Positions 24,293 through 30,306 of a stretch of 64,000 bases of DNA are shown in pieces. The DNA lies in assembly GCF_024300825.1 (NCBI RefSeq), contig NZ_CP101323.1:620001-684000 (forward strand). The letters run 5' to 3'. This DNA comes from Natronomonas gomsonensis. GTDB lineage: Archaea; Halobacteriota; Halobacteria; Halobacteriales; Haloarculaceae. The notes below the pieces were generated by a model, which did no database searches, was not told the origin of the DNA, and was given only the letters and a program-made list of their open reading frames with translations. The first letter of the stretch is position 1. Every line of letters begins with the position of its first letter. Position numbers and translations under genes: made by a program.

Positions 24293-25159
24293 CTACCACT
24301 CGACGCCTTCGCTCTCGTCGGCGTCCATTCGTCGCAACAGCGCCCGCGCCGTCGAGGCGTCGTAGCCGAACAGCACCGACTCGCCGTACTCGCTGGCGAC
24401 TTCGGCGGCGTGAATCAAGTCGTCGATGTCCACGTCGACGGCGTAGAGTTCGATGCTGAGTGGCGTATCGAGGCGGTCGACGAACCCGCTGGCGATGGTT
24501 TCGAGCCAGTAGGTCGTCCCGTAGTGGGTGTCGTACAGCGGGACGACGAACTCGTCGACGTACTCCTCGATTGTGTTGAGGTCGATGCCGGCGCGCTCGT
24601 AGAGGTGTCCCTCGTAGGGGTCGGGGTACAGCGTCATGTAGGTGGTTCCCGGAATCCGGTCTGCGGCCGCCTCGACGAACTCGGTGATGACATCGGCGCG
24701 CCACTCGTAGCGGTCCTCGATGGTCGTCTCCTCCGGCGGTGGCCCCTCACCGTTTTCGTGGCGTGTCTCGACCCACGACTCGAAGGCCGCGTTACAGCGG
24801 TCACAGTAGCAGTACTCCGCCCGCGGGAAGCCGATGTCGTCGAGGCGGACGTCCGGGTTGACTTCGGCACAATCCTCGATTATCTCCAAGAGTCCCTCCC
24901 GATACCCCTCGTGGGTCGGACAGACGTAGGCCCAATCGAAGTAGGTCCGCTCGCGAGTCGCCCGCTGGCCCTCCGGGTTGACGGGGACGATGTCCTCGTT
25001 GCCGTCGGCCGCGGCGTTGTCACCGAAACACGACACCATACTCACCGCATCCGCGATGGGGTCCGCAGAGCGCCCCGAGACGTCTTTCACCTCGTAGAAC
25101 GCGCGGTCGAACTCCGGCCAGCGTGCCTCCTCTTCGTTTCGCGTGACGACGCCGTACAT
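24293..25159 (-). CDS. TIM-barrel glycosidase-like protein, unknown substrate
   Basis: 288 residues, no signal peptide. The stretch VNPDVRLDDIGFPRAEYCYC, then DRCNAAFESWV, is reminiscent of barrel-type hypothetical glycoside hydrolases, in which a strand ending in acidic residues is followed by a CxCxxC segment. Later strands (PGTTYMTLYPDPYEG, LSIELYAVDVD, SVLFGYDAS) fit a barrel. Cysteines at the CYCDRC site may bind a metal. The start MYGVVTRNEEE was selected over MPTTG five codons upstream by context. I do not recognise a characterised relative. Confidence 0.55.
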   Translation of the reverse strand: MYGVVTRNEEEARWPEFDRAFYEVKDVSGRSADPIADAVSMVSCFGDNAAADGNEDIVPVNPEGQRATRERTYFDWAYVCPTHEGYREGLLEIIEDCAEVNPDVRLDDIGFPRAEYCYCDRCNAAFESWVETRHENGEGPPPEETTIEDRYEWRADVITEFVEAAADRIPGTTYMTLYPDPYEGHLYERAGIDLNTIEEYVDEFVVPLYDTHYGTTYWLETIASGFVDRLDTPLSIELYAVDVDIDDLIHAAEVASEYGESVLFGYDASTARALLRRMDADESEGVEW

Positions 25160-25220
25160 ACCCGTAGTCGGCACTCGGCGTGGGTAAGTCGTTCGGAAGA
25201 GTGGTTGGGTGGCGGTACGC

Positions 25221-25356: not shown

Positions 25357-25818
25357 CTATGCGACGCTGATGTGTGCGGCCAGCGACTCCCTGATGATGG
25401 TATCGCAGTATGCACACCGGACGCCCTCGTCGAGGACCTCGAAGCGCGATTCGACGGGTTCGTTTTCCGTGGTGATGCAGTTGGCGTTCGGACACGACAG
25501 TACGCCGACGACGCTTTCGGGGCGAGAGACGCGATGTTTCTCGACCACGTCAAACTCGCGGACGATGTTGATTGTCGCGGCAGGCGCGATGAGCGACAGC
25601 ACGTCGACCTCGTTTTGACTCAACTCTCTGCCTTCGACCTTCACGATGTCCTTGCGGCCGAGTCGGTCGGAGGGGACGTTCATCCCGACGGAGACCTCCT
25701 CGCCCGAGGTGCCGTCGATGCCGAGGATAGCGAGGACGTTGAGCGCCTGACCGCCGGCGATGTGGTCGATGACGGTGCCGCTTTCGATTTTCGAGACGCG
25801 GAGTTCTGTGTCGGTCAT
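25357..25818 (-). CDS. pyrI: Aspartate carbamoyltransferase regulatory subunit
   Basis: 153 residues. N-terminal allosteric domain ([20 protein letters not shown], then NVLAILGI) binds nucleotides; the C-terminal zinc domain carries CPNANC...CAYC, i.e. C-x4-C and C-x2-C as required to hold the catalytic subunit. It gives feedback control of pyrimidine synthesis by CTP/ATP. The ATG overlaps the pyrB stop by four bases (ATGA), so the two are translationally coupled and made together. Confidence 0.97.
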
Positions 25819-26717
25819 AGGATTGAATCGAGCAGCGCCATTCGGACGGGAACGCCGTTGTGTGCCTGTTCGAAGTACGTCGCGTACTCCGTTTCGTCGA
25901 TTTCGGGTGCGATTTCGTCGACGCGCGGCAGCGGATGCATCACCGTCAGGTCGTCCTTGGCTTTCTCCAGCAGGTCGGCGTCGATGCGGTACTCGCCCGC
26001 TATCTGCCGGTACTCGTTCTCATCGGGGAACCGCTCCCGCTGGATGCGGGTGACGTACAACACGTCGAGTGCTTCGAGGACGTTCTCGATGTCCGTGTGT
26101 TCGCGGACCTGCGCACCGGCCTCGTGGAGGTCATAGCGAACGCTACGCGGCAGTCGCAGGCTCTCTGGACTGATGAAGTGCTGGCTGGCGTCGAAGTTCG
26201 TCAGCGCGTGGGCCAGCGAGTGGACCGTCCGGCCGTACTTCAAATCGCCCATGATGCCGATGGTGAGGTCGTCGAAGCCGGCGTTCTCGCGGATGGTGTA
26301 GAGGTCCAATAGCGTCTGAGTGGGGTGTTGGCCCGCGCCGTCGCCCGCGTTGATGACGGGCACGTCGACGAACTCGCTGGCCAGTTTCGCGGCGCCCTCG
26401 GAGGGGTGTCTGAGGACGATGGCGTCGGTGTATCCCTCGATGACGCGAACGGTGTCGGCCAGCGACTCGCCCTTTTTGACCGACGAGGACTCGACGCTCC
26501 CCATGTCGACGGTGTCGCCACCGAGCCGCTTCATCGCGGTGTCGAAGGACATCTTCGTCCGCGTACTCGGCTCGAAGAACAACAACCCGAGGAGGTCGTT
26601 GTCGTGGGAGTGAGCGACCGCGCCGGGGTCGTCGGCGATTTCGGCGGCGCGGTCCAACACCGCCTCGATATCGCCACGCGACAACTGCTTCGCGCTTATC
26701 AGGTAATCGTGGCGCAT
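25815..26717 (-). CDS. pyrB: Aspartate carbamoyltransferase catalytic subunit
   Basis: 300 residues. Makes carbamoyl-aspartate, first committed step of pyrimidine synthesis. Motifs: [20 protein letters not shown] (carbamoyl phosphate loop), [36 protein letters not shown] and HPLPRVDEI. Start [10 protein letters not shown] chosen; the longer frame to 26774 is not homologous. First gene of a pyrB-pyrI pair. Confidence 0.97.
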
Positions 26718-26871
26718 TACCGAAAGACCCGCCCCGGACGCTCTTGAATCTCCCGACCCGACCGGACTCCGCACATCGCTCCCGTGGTTTGCAGTCCCAA
26801 CCGCTGTCTTGCCGAATCAACACACAACCCTGCCAGAACATTTAATCAGGTGGACATGCTAAACCGAACAG

Positions 26872-27666: not shown

Positions 27667-29022
27667 ATGGAACTGTTCGGAACCGCCGGGATTCGGGGCG
27701 ACGCGACGACGGCGGTGACGCCGTCGCTCGCGCTCGCGGTCGGCAGAGCCGCGGCCGTAGACGGCGAGACGTTCGTCGTCGGCCGCGACGGCCGCGAAAC
27801 TGGTCCGGCGCTCGCCGCAGCGGTCGAAGCCGGAATAGCAAGCGGCGGCGCCGAGGTTGTCAGGGTCGGCCGCGTCCCGACGCCGGCGCTCGCCTACGCC
27901 TCTCGGGGACGTCGCGGCGTGATGGTCACGGCGAGTCACAATCCACCGCAGGACAACGGACTGAAACTGTTCGTCGACGGAACGGAGTACGACCGTACGG
28001 CCGAGGAGGCGGTCGAATCACGCGTCGACGGGGGGACGGGACCGACCGACTGGAGCGCGTGGGGAGATTCGACCCGCGAAGAGGTACTCGACGACTATCG
28101 CGACACCATCGTCGAGTACACGCGTCGAGTCGTCGGTGACTGTGAAAACACGAAAGTCGCCGTCGACTGCGGCAACGGGATGGCGAGCGTCGCGACTCCC
28201 CAAGTCCTCCGAGCGCTCGGTGCCGACGTCGTCGCGCTCAACGCCAACGTCGACGGCCACTTCCCCGGACGCGAGTCGAAACCCACACCCGAGAGCCTCG
28301 AAGACCTTCGTGCGTTCGTCGCCGACGGCGACTTCGAGTTCGGCATCGGCCACGACGGCGACGCAGACCGCATCGTGGTCGTCGACGAGGAAGGCGAAAT
28401 AGTCCACGAGGACACCATCCTCGCGATGCTCGCGGGCTTTTACACCCGCCAGAGCGACGCCGCCGACCCGGTCGTCGTGACGACGCCGAACGCCTCGGCG
28501 CGCATCGACGAACACGTCGAGACGCACGACGGCCGAATCGAACGGGTCCGACTCGGCGCGCTTCACGAGGGCGTCGCCGCCGTCCGGGATACGGGGACGG
28601 CCGACACCGATGTCGTCTTCGCGGCGGAGCCGTGGAAACACGTCCATACCGGCTTCGGACCGTGGATAGACGGCGTCACCAGCGCCGCGGTCGTCGGTGC
28701 GTTGATTGCACGCGATGGCCTCGCGGAACTCCGGGCACCGATTGCCGAGCGACCCTACAGGAAGGTAAGCGTCGACTGTCCCGACGACCGAAAGGGGCCA
28801 ACGATGGATGTTCTCGAATCCCGACTCCCGGAGTCGTTCCCCGAGGCGTCGGTCGACACCGAGTACGGCGTCCGGTTGACCTTCGACGACGCCTCGTGGA
28901 CGCTGGTCCGTCCCAGCGGCACCGAACCGTACGTCCGCATCTACGCCGAAAGCGACGATGTCGAGGCGCTCGTCGGCGACGTTAGAGAGGTCGTCGTCGA
29001 GGCCATCGACGACGTGTCGTAG
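27667..29022 (+). CDS. Phosphohexomutase-family enzyme, probably phosphopentomutase
   Basis: 451 residues, alpha-D-phosphohexomutase fold. Phosphoserine loop TASHNPPQDNG with Ser90; metal loop DGDADR at 230-235; phosphate-binding RPSGTEPYVRIY near 416. The sugar loop, GEMSGH in phosphoglucomutase/phosphomannomutase and GEQSGH in GlmM, is AEPWKH here (Glu321). In Thermococcus a member of this family is the phosphopentomutase. The next genes are cdd and udp, which release ribose 1-phosphate, so conversion to ribose 5-phosphate is the best inference. Alternatives: phosphoglucosamine or phosphomannomutase. Start MELFGTAGIRG fits the family. Confidence 0.75.
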   Translation: MELFGTAGIRGDATTAVTPSLALAVGRAAAVDGETFVVGRDGRETGPALAAAVEAGIASGGAEVVRVGRVPTPALAYASRGRRGVMVTASHNPPQDNGLKLFVDGTEYDRTAEEAVESRVDGGTGPTDWSAWGDSTREEVLDDYRDTIVEYTRRVVGDCENTKVAVDCGNGMASVATPQVLRALGADVVALNANVDGHFPGRESKPTPESLEDLRAFVADGDFEFGIGHDGDADRIVVVDEEGEIVHEDTILAMLAGFYTRQSDAADPVVVTTPNASARIDEHVETHDGRIERVRLGALHEGVAAVRDTGTADTDVVFAAEPWKHVHTGFGPWIDGVTSAAVVGALIARDGLAELRAPIAERPYRKVSVDCPDDRKGPTMDVLESRLPESFPEASVDTEYGVRLTFDDASWTLVRPSGTEPYVRIYAESDDVEALVGDVREVVVEAIDDVS

Positions 29023-29089
29023 CCCCGGCCCCGATGCCGCCGAAGCCGTCGACGGCAGGTATTTGCGCTGGGCGGCCGAGTCCCGGCGT

Positions 29090-29482
29090 ATGGACGACAG
29101 GGAACTACTTGAAATCGCTCGCGAGGCCGTCGAGCGGTCCTACGCGCCGTACTCGGAGTACTACGTCGGGGCAGCCCTCGAAACCGACGACGGGTCGGTG
29201 TACACCGGCTGTAACATCGAGAACGCCAACTACTCCAACAGCGTCCACGCCGAGGAGTTGGCGCTGTCGAAAGCCGTCGAGGATGGCCACCGGGAGTTCG
29301 AAGCGGTCGCGGTCAGTTCGGACCGCCGGGACGGCGTCACGCCCTGTGGGATGTGCCGACAGTCGCTGTCGGAGTTCTGTGCCGCTGATTTCCGCGTTGT
29401 CTGTGAGGGCGAGGACGGGCCGACGACGTACACGCTCGGCGAACTTCTCCCGAACACCATCACGATGGAGCATCTCGAATGA
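29090..29482 (+). CDS. cdd: Cytidine deaminase
   Basis: 130 residues, the tetrameric single-domain type. Zinc ligands and catalytic glutamate are evident: NSVHAEELALSKAV carries Cys/His-Glu (here His-Ala-Glu) and PCGMCRQSLSEF the CxxC. TGCNIENANYSN is the substrate loop. It turns cytidine/deoxycytidine into uridine/deoxyuridine. Its stop overlaps udp by four bases (ATGA), and it follows the phosphohexomutase-family gene by 67 bases, forming a salvage operon. Confidence 0.95.
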   Translation: MDDRELLEIAREAVERSYAPYSEYYVGAALETDDGSVYTGCNIENANYSNSVHAEELALSKAVEDGHREFEAVAVSSDRRDGVTPCGMCRQSLSEFCAADFRVVCEGEDGPTTYTLGELLPNTITMEHLE

Positions 29483-30306
29483 CCGCCGACAGCGAAGACC
29501 CGAACGACGACGAACAGTATCACGTCGAACTCGCCGACGGGGACATCGAGGGACCGGTACTCCTTCCGGGCGACCCGAACCGCGTCGAGATAATCGCGGA
29601 CTGCTGGGATGAGTATCGCGAGCGGGCCTCTCACCGCGAGTATCGAACGCTTGCGGGGATGTACGACGACGAACCGCTCGCGGTTACGTCGACCGGAATC
29701 GGCTCGCCGTCGGCGGCCATTGCCGTCGAGGAACTCGCCCGCATCGGCGCCGAATCGTTCATCCGGGTCGGCTCCTGTGGTGCGATACAGGAGGGGGCGT
29801 CCGTCGGCGACCTCGTCATCACGACGGCGGCGGTCCGACAGGAGGGAACGAGCGACGAGTACGTCCGCGAGGATTACCCAGCGGCCGCCGACGACGAGGT
29901 GGTCACGGCGCTCGTGACCGCCGCCGAGCGACTCGACCACGACTACCACCTCGGCGTCACCTGCTCTACGGACTCGTTTTACGACGGGCAGTCACGGCCG
30001 GGATTCGAGGGGTTCCGTGCCGCCGGCGCCGAGGAGCGAATCGAAGAACTACAAGCGGCAGGGGTCCTGAATTTCGAGATGGAAGCCAGCGCCATCCTCA
30101 CGCTTTCGAGTCTGTACGGGCTCCGGGCCGGAGCCGTCTGTACCGTCTACGCCAACCGCGTCACCGGCGAGTTCAGAACCGAGGGCCAGCGGAAGGCCGC
30201 CGAAACTGCCTCACTCGCGGCGGCGCTGTTGTCGAAGATGGACCGAGAGAAGGCTAACGCAGGTGTCGACCACTGGCACGCGGGGCTGTCGCTTGATGAT
30301 GGGTAA
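29479..30306 (+). CDS. udp: Uridine (nucleoside) phosphorylase
   Basis: 275 residues, NP-I fold hexameric phosphorylase. LLPGDPNRVEIIADCW is the phosphate and start segment; RVGSCGAIQEGASVGDLVI follows; LNFEMEASAILTLSSL holds the ribose-binding Met-Glu pair. Catalyses uridine + phosphate to uracil + ribose 1-phosphate. Translationally coupled to cdd. Strict uridine over broader nucleoside specificity cannot be shown by eye, but the UdP-type FEMEAS and pairing with cdd favour uridine. Confidence 0.9.
   Translation: MTADSEDPNDDEQYHVELADGDIEGPVLLPGDPNRVEIIADCWDEYRERASHREYRTLAGMYDDEPLAVTSTGIGSPSAAIAVEELARIGAESFIRVGSCGAIQEGASVGDLVITTAAVRQEGTSDEYVREDYPAAADDEVVTALVTAAERLDHDYHLGVTCSTDSFYDGQSRPGFEGFRAAGAEERIEELQAAGVLNFEMEASAILTLSSLYGLRAGAVCTVYANRVTGEFRTEGQRKAAETASLAAALLSKMDREKANAGVDHWHAGLSLDDG

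Follow-up and report, generated by a model that had tools for sequence, protein, structure and literature searches.

A predicted TK1777-type phosphopentomutase encoded with cytidine deaminase and uridine phosphorylase in Halobacteria

Introduction

The closest described relative of the enzyme considered here is the phosphopentomutase TK1777 of Thermococcus kodakarensis (PDB 9ix8), which has the COG1109 fold. For this enzyme, Naz et al. 2024 (PMC11641776) report AAEP at the position of GEEN in hexose mutases, together with high activity on deoxyribose 1-phosphate and none that is significant on hexose phosphates. In its structure, AAE lies in a sheet and the proline in a turn (PMC11940775). The present text deals with a haloarchaeal gene of this kind, ppm, which is followed by genes for a cytidine deaminase (cdd) and a predicted uridine phosphorylase (udp) in a 64,000-nucleotide stretch of Natronomonas gomsonensis (RefSeq assembly GCF_024300825.1, contig NZ_CP101323.1, positions 620,001 to 684,000 of the forward strand). 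This stretch is called the window, and coordinates are counted from its first letter unless stated otherwise. The ppm product is very probably a TK1777-type phosphopentomutase, that is, a COG1109 enzyme whose third loop has been remodelled from GExSGH or GEEN to AAEPWKH. It shares with TK1777 the fold, TASHNPP, DGDADR, FAAEPWK, and RPSGTEP, and differs in being haloarchaeal, in its linkage to cdd, udp, and, in other genomes, a nucleoside-type transporter, and in having a predicted rather than a measured activity.

Other well-described enzymes resemble ppm in only some of these respects. Archaeal GlmM (TIGR03990) and the phosphomannomutases/phosphoglucomutases (PMM/PGM; 1wqa, 9du5, 2f7l) share its superfamily, fold, and motifs I and II, but ppm has AAEPWK in place of GEEN or GExSGH and scores under the GlmM cut-off. 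DeoB (COG1015, TIGR01696) would share the predicted reaction and pathway position, but belongs to another family and was not found in the source genome. The non-carboxylating pentose bisphosphate pathway of haloarchaea likewise starts from nucleoside phosphorolysis to ribose 1-phosphate (R1P), but continues with a kinase instead of a mutase (Sato et al. 2022, PMC9700705); in the main text of that paper, the word ‘phosphopentomutase’ does not occur.

No paper on a haloarchaeal phosphopentomutase was found in the non-subscription literature searched. In a genome of MSBL1, an uncultured lineage of brines, a ribokinase/phosphopentomutase is named (PMC4725937), and phosphopentomutase is treated in general elsewhere (PMC4177761). 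To judge by sequence and fold, the enzyme belongs to the type already known through TK1777, and what appears to be new is its haloarchaeal distribution and its gene context. The assignment is supported by sequence, tree, fold, loop identity with TK1777, and conserved linkage; the substrate, the direction of flux, and the co-regulation of the module we infer.

Assignment of the Mutase

Three genes on the forward strand make up the locus:

27667–29022, + strand: ppm, 451 amino acids (ATG 27667, TAG 29022), predicted archaeal phosphopentomutase, COG1109 / alpha-phosphohexomutase superfamily
29090–29482, + strand: cdd, 130 amino acids, tetrameric-type cytidine deaminase, TIGR01354
29479–30306, + strand: udp, 275 amino acids, predicted uridine phosphorylase of the ‘Urdpase2’ type

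A first-pass annotation, made from the letters of this DNA, had described a gene of the phosphohexomutase family with an unusual sugar loop, had pointed to a phosphopentomutase of the same superfamily in Thermococcus, and had proposed a pentose as the likely substrate. The proposal gains support, since the unusual loop is the AAEP loop of TK1777 and the comparison with the Thermococcus enzyme that the annotation had suggested places the ppm protein with TK1777 by sequence, tree, and fold alike.

When the ppm protein is searched against solved structures (phmmer), 9ix8 comes first with 287 bits, followed by hexose mutases with 193 and 186 bits. The genome encodes five proteins matching PF02878, the ppm product and four paralogues, and the ranking is reversed for the paralogue L003, for which hexose mutases (283 bits) are ahead of 9ix8 (231 bits). 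Conversely, TK1777 used as the query ranks the ppm protein first among the five (285 bits, the next at 210), with 40% identity over 437 residues. The paralogue L001 is instead the top choice of three archaeal hexose-type enzymes, T. kodakarensis PGM and P. horikoshii PMM/PGM among them, and L003 that of a bacterial GlmM.

These rankings bear on the alternative that ppm encodes a hexosamine or hexose mutase (GlmM, PMM, or PGM) and lies near nucleoside genes by accident. The ppm protein belongs to the same superfamily, has motifs I and II of the hexose enzymes, and shares motif IV with bacterial GlmM; moreover, its top NCBIfam model is Arch_GlmM (TIGR03990, 370.4 bits). This score is nevertheless below the GlmM cut-off of 439, which is passed by L001 (499.7), L003 (475.7), and L005 (472.1), the remaining paralogue L002 failing it like the ppm protein. 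Together with the loss of the hexose-type loop, the preference for the pentose enzyme (287 vs 193 bits), and the conserved linkage to nucleoside genes, this makes a hexose mutase highly improbable; GlmM/PMM identity was rejected on the cut-off, the paralogue scores, and the lost loop. The first-pass annotation had added that its reading would fall if ppm were the only GlmM of the genome, which is not the case given the three paralogues above the cut-off. DeoB was also considered as the phosphopentomutase, located elsewhere in the genome, and rejected: no TIGR01696 match was found in the ppm protein or the genome, in a search whose control was positive in 7 of 14 known genomes.

The phosphopentomutase assignment agrees with phylogeny. 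A first tree used 22 of the 80 haloarchaeal loci, drawn at random; in it, TK1777 groups with the haloarchaeal proteins and with two divergent homologues (support 100/99). A repeat tree, from which three long rows (7ojr, 2f7l, own_L002) and ten of the 22 haloarchaeal rows were dropped and to which the paralogue L132 was added, recovers the same group (100/98), present in 100% of 200 bootstrap trees. In neither of the two trees, both midpoint-rooted, do archaeal GlmM/PMM/PGM-type enzymes join the phosphopentomutase group. The predicted structure of the ppm protein (pLDDT 90.1) has 9ix8 as its rank 1 match by both Foldseek and VIA-align.

Four motifs can be read in the protein and aligned with other members of the superfamily:

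27928–27948, + strand: motif I, TASHNPP, catalytic phosphoserine loop, residues 88–94, aligned with 9ix8 and the paralogues
28354–28371, + strand: motif II, DGDADR, metal-binding loop, residues 230–235, aligned with 9ix8 and the paralogues
28618–28641, + strand: motif III, FAAEPWKH, replacing the hexose-type GExSGH/GEEN, residues 318–325 (TK1777 has FAAEPWK)
28909–28929, + strand: motif IV, RPSGTEP, phosphate-binding loop, residues 415–421, read in the sequence and aligned

The phosphoserine and DGDADR loops and the AEPWKH variant are therefore present as the first-pass annotation had read them. Motifs I (TXSHNP) and II (DXDXDR) are common to hexose enzymes, while GlmM and three of the four paralogues also have motif IV, so that none of the three is diagnostic. 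In motif III, GExSGH, the hexose-type sugar loop as defined in the first-pass annotation, is absent and replaced by AAEPWKH, and FAAEPWK aligns residue by residue with TK1777. In the structural model, a strand at 314–321 includes FAAE, and P322–W323 lie outside strand and helix, much as described for 9ix8. Across 29 aligned orthologues, T88–P94 (motif I) and F318–H325 (motif III) are invariant, and motif II appears as DGDGDR or DGDSDR in a few. Among loci fetched by protein similarity, AAEPWK is found in 39 of 40 (33 genes including ppm itself; six loci repeat a gene). A survey of the exact FAAEPWK codon pattern, over 294 genomes of which 234 are at least 90% complete, less complete ones being included, found it in 50 of 53 Halobacteria and in none of the 241 other genomes of the phylum.

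Several points weigh against the assignment. The ppm protein matches the Pfam PGM_PMM models of domains I, II, and IV, but that of domain III, the domain carrying motif III, finds no match in it at E ≤ 0.001, and the best NCBIfam model is, as noted, that of a GlmM. The margin in the fold comparison is slight (Z 48.1 for 9ix8 vs 46.3 and 45.5 for the next). TK1777 is the sole characterised phosphopentomutase in either tree, and stands in both on a long branch with deviating letter composition. The presence of AAEPWK in 80 of 80 haloarchaeal proteins from pattern-fetched loci is partly circular, because FAAEPWKH was among the six patterns used to fetch them; the one exception among the 40 similarity-fetched loci is a paralogue of 45% identity, and 3 of the 53 Halobacteria are without the exact codon pattern. 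Finally, no haloarchaeal member has, to our knowledge, been assayed.

As a side observation, three genomes of Halobacteria (G002, G014, and G050) score strongly for the mutase (E 6.4e-144 or better) and are without the exact FAAEPWK codon pattern; they may hold variants of the loop.

Distribution in Halobacteria

The mutase is found throughout the class sample of 242 genomes. A strong match (E 6.4e-144 or better) is present in 218 of them. The apparent weakness in the other 24 (best E weaker than 1e-120) turned out to be due to split matches in 22, which have mutase pieces of 62–73% identity in one open frame, and to divergent homologues in two (G021/L111 and G218/L127), with 47–50% identity and AAEPWK retained. 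By comparison, udp is absent at E ≤ 1e-60 in 7 of the 242 genomes, G021 and G218 among them. These two are small genomes, and their divergent mutases branch together beside the other haloarchaeal ones.

Within the phylum, the exact loop was found in Halobacteria alone and the one characterised relative of the enzyme is in Thermococcus, a distribution that would fit gene transfer between hyperthermophiles and halophiles. If the assignment is right, a gene that is matched by the GlmM model below its cut-off, and is hence easily mis-named, would be the haloarchaeal phosphopentomutase.

Cytidine Deaminase and Predicted Uridine Phosphorylase

The two genes behind ppm encode enzymes that would deliver its substrate. 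The cdd protein exceeds the cut-off of TIGR01354 (143.8 bits against 113.65), and HAE and PCGMC, presumably its zinc motifs, can be read in its sequence. The udp protein scores 272.9 bits with TIGR01718 (uridine phosphorylase), narrowly below the cut-off of 280.3, and because this cut-off is missed, its name rests on residues and on the nearest solved relatives. In the PDB, it is matched best by uridine phosphorylases (190 bits). One of these structures is 1k3f, which we take to be the E. coli uridine phosphorylase, with a presumed role of Phe162, Gln166, and Arg168 in uracil recognition:

29977–29997, + strand: udp motif FYDGQSR, corresponding in the alignment to Phe162, Gln166, and Arg168 of 1k3f

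The two proteins are 45% identical over 222 residues and all three of these residues are kept in udp, which differs from 1k3f in being haloarchaeal and just under the TIGR01718 cut-off. The pattern FY.GQ.R is kept in 33 of 33 udp orthologues with more than 240 readable amino acids.

Two further members of PF01048 occur in the genome. The other uridine-phosphorylase-like protein (L099), encoded near the R1P kinase, is without the uracil-type Gln/Arg motif and is placed like Urdpase1, the guanosine phosphorylase of Sato et al. 2022; the third member resembles neither. Since L099 fits the position of Urdpase1 and the third member is unlike either, the udp product is, by elimination, likely to be the ‘Urdpase2’ of Sato et al. 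2022, who leave its substrate open (PMC9700705). Uridine is predicted as this substrate because the protein keeps residues that align with those binding uracil in E. coli Udp.

The three products can be arranged in a pyrimidine-nucleoside module. Cdd would convert (deoxy)cytidine to (deoxy)uridine, Udp would split (deoxy)uridine with phosphate into uracil and (deoxy)ribose 1-phosphate, and the mutase would shift the phosphate of the latter to C5. Ribose 5-phosphate (R5P) could then yield phosphoribosyl pyrophosphate (PRPP), which with uracil would give uridine monophosphate through Upp, and deoxyribose 5-phosphate could enter the DeoC aldolase reaction. Both Upp and DeoC are present in the genome, each over its cut-off, and the gene for DeoC adjoins that for ribose 1,5-bisphosphate (R15P) isomerase.

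Gene Neighbourhood and Transcription Units

Gene order, strand, the 67-base gap between ppm and cdd, and the ATGA overlap of cdd and udp at 29479–29482 were all reproduced from the coordinates of the open reading frames (ORFs), in agreement with the first-pass annotation. At this locus, the mutase is 89% identical to that of Natronomonas gomsonensis and 92% identical to that of Natronomonas sp. CBA1123, its closest named relatives.

Comparable arrangements are widespread. In 77 of 80 haloarchaeal loci and in 27 of 28 named genera, ppm is followed on the same strand by one or more of cdd, udp, and a complete or partial Bmp-type ATP-binding cassette (ABC) transporter, and on this ground the association of ppm with nucleoside genes exceeds chance. 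In 33 loci, cdd and udp are present without the transporter, and six have cdd or udp alone. The transporter, with the order Bmp-ABC-permease-permease (PnrA-type), occurs in 38 loci; 36 of these have it complete, or at least three of its genes plus cdd, and two are cut or partial (L026, L090). Within the 6 kb examined, 14 of the 38 have cdd behind the transporter, four of them also udp. None of the three elements is present in the last three loci, two of which are stretches ending within 2.8 kb.

The transporter lipoprotein in L031 and L074 is recognised by Pfam as ‘PnrA-like’. In T. kodakarensis, a transporter whose component NupD is similar to PnrA, with swapped domain order, is needed by an evolved strain for growth on guanosine, inosine, and cytidine (PMC12628685). 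The transporter linked to ppm in haloarchaea would, by analogy, carry nucleosides. A transporter adjoining ppm was also sought in the source genome and rejected: a genome-wide search for the Bmp family gave no match, with the control positive in 6 of 14 genomes including Haloferax volcanii.

The distance between ppm and udp was surveyed in the 106 genomes having both genes among the matches listed (150 for each gene, in 242 genomes). Among these matches, udp lies on the same strand at most 12 kb downstream of ppm in 67 genomes. Counting against a tight linkage, it is distant from ppm or sits on a different contig in 36, and near ppm in another arrangement in three. The 36 include G037, one of six genomes of the same genus.

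These exceptions, and the sequence between ppm and cdd, lend some weight to the view that the genes are mere neighbours, cdd-udp forming its own transcription unit and the mutase acting in general pentose metabolism. The gap contains a candidate promoter element:

29060–29066, + strand: TATTTGC, candidate TATA element between ppm and cdd, spaced as for a leaderless transcript (−30 to −24 relative to the start of cdd)

In 29 loci whose ppm-cdd gap measures 44–250 bases, the upstream profile of cdd reaches 97% A/T at −29 and −27, against 3–59% outside −30 to −25; the TATA strings counted were chosen after viewing the sequences, and the A/T profile is independent of that choice. A similar block precedes ppm (95–96% A/T at −27 and −26, 80 loci). 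A leaderless promoter for cdd-udp is thus likely to lie in the gap, and the conserved TATA-like block at −30 to −25 makes a single ppm-cdd-udp operon doubtful. Of the operon proposed in the first-pass annotation, the short gap, the ATGA overlap, and the conserved linkage stand, and its strict co-transcription is in doubt. Nevertheless, a PnrA-type transporter comes after ppm in 38 of the 80 loci, with cdd behind it in 14, a pattern that would be difficult to account for if no pathway were shared. Mere neighbourhood is for this reason the less convincing option, if one to be taken seriously, and it need not be opposed to a common function, as a shared pathway is compatible with separate promoters. 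The mutase gene and cdd-udp may be transcribed as two neighbouring units with a common pathway.

Competing Routes for Ribose 1-Phosphate

Judged from the genome, R1P has a second outlet. An ATP-dependent R1P kinase (NF053626, 364.5 bits, cut-off 330) and an R15P isomerase (461 bits, cut-off 314) are both encoded, and with the Urdpase1-like protein they are counterparts of components of the pentose bisphosphate pathway. The first-pass annotation had argued that the R1P released by Udp needs a mutase. A predicted mutase is present, and R1P could also leave through the kinase. For deoxyribose 1-phosphate, no kinase outlet is known to us, and the mutase with DeoC would serve this compound, as in Thermococcus.

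The presence of kinase and isomerase suggests another direction for the mutase, in which the main flux would run from R5P to R1P and feed the pentose bisphosphate pathway, salvage being secondary. The wider occurrence of the mutase, with a strong homologue in 242 of 242 genomes when udp is absent (E ≤ 1e-60) in seven, is in line with this. The kinase, however, has its own phosphorylase nearby and lies far from the mutase, at 3.377 Mb against 0.648 Mb, a distance of 2.7 Mb, which shrinks to about 0.8 Mb should the 3.54 Mb contig be circular (the genome comprises 3.65 Mb in 2 contigs). The mutase is linked instead to cdd, udp, and the transporter. A predominant flux towards R1P is thus unlikely, and the two directions are not mutually exclusive. 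The most likely task of the ppm product is an ordinary one, the recycling of nucleoside ribose.

If this reading holds, R1P could go either to R15P by the kinase, for catabolism, or to R5P by the mutase, for PRPP and salvage, and reverse flux through the mutase would bring R5P into the pentose bisphosphate route. It would give the class a route from nucleoside ribose to R5P, in addition to the mainly bisphosphate-based routes reported by Sato et al., and would predict uridine for the second phosphorylase (Urdpase2) and, in many genera, an ABC transporter for nucleosides. For 19 of the 63 species that Sato et al. examined, they had no clue to a nucleoside degradation route, Haloarcula being among the genera without a route (PMC9700705). 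More tentatively, and with the odds leaning slightly the other way, a TK1777-type phosphopentomutase could be a core enzyme of nearly all Halobacteria and supply the missing step of nucleoside breakdown in such cases, with R1P as the branch point.

Two side observations concern the genes of the bisphosphate route. An R15P isomerase/eIF2B-like homologue at genome positions 890391–891242 (L103) has one in-frame TAG within the stretch that was matched, which may reflect a pseudogene, a gene end, or a sequencing matter. An ORF of 214 amino acids (L099:4250–4894, + strand), flanked by the genes for the R1P kinase and the Urdpase1-like protein, by eye resembles a HAD-type hydrolase and might be a candidate for the RuBP phosphatase of the published pathway.

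Other Genes and Minor Observations

Upstream of ppm, genes of de novo pyrimidine synthesis are found on the divergent strand:

25357–26774, − strand: pyrB and pyrI, aspartate carbamoyltransferase, over the cut-offs of TIGR00670 and TIGR00240

The adjacency of pyrB to ppm was found in 7 of the 80 loci, six from Natronomonas and one from a Haloarculaceae bin. Near pyrI, an ORF of 293 amino acids (24293–25174, − strand) has no NCBIfam match at E ≤ 0.001.

Elsewhere in the genome, the gene for a RuBisCO-superfamily protein (7183–8448 of L101) immediately precedes that of a GlmM-like paralogue, L005, whose loop reads GEGNGG (L101:5793–8448 for the pair, − strand). Identification of this neighbour of L005 as a type III RuBisCO was considered and is unsupported, with 154 bits against a cut-off of 497. 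The pairing of a divergent RuBisCO-like protein with a sugar-phosphate mutase may merit attention.

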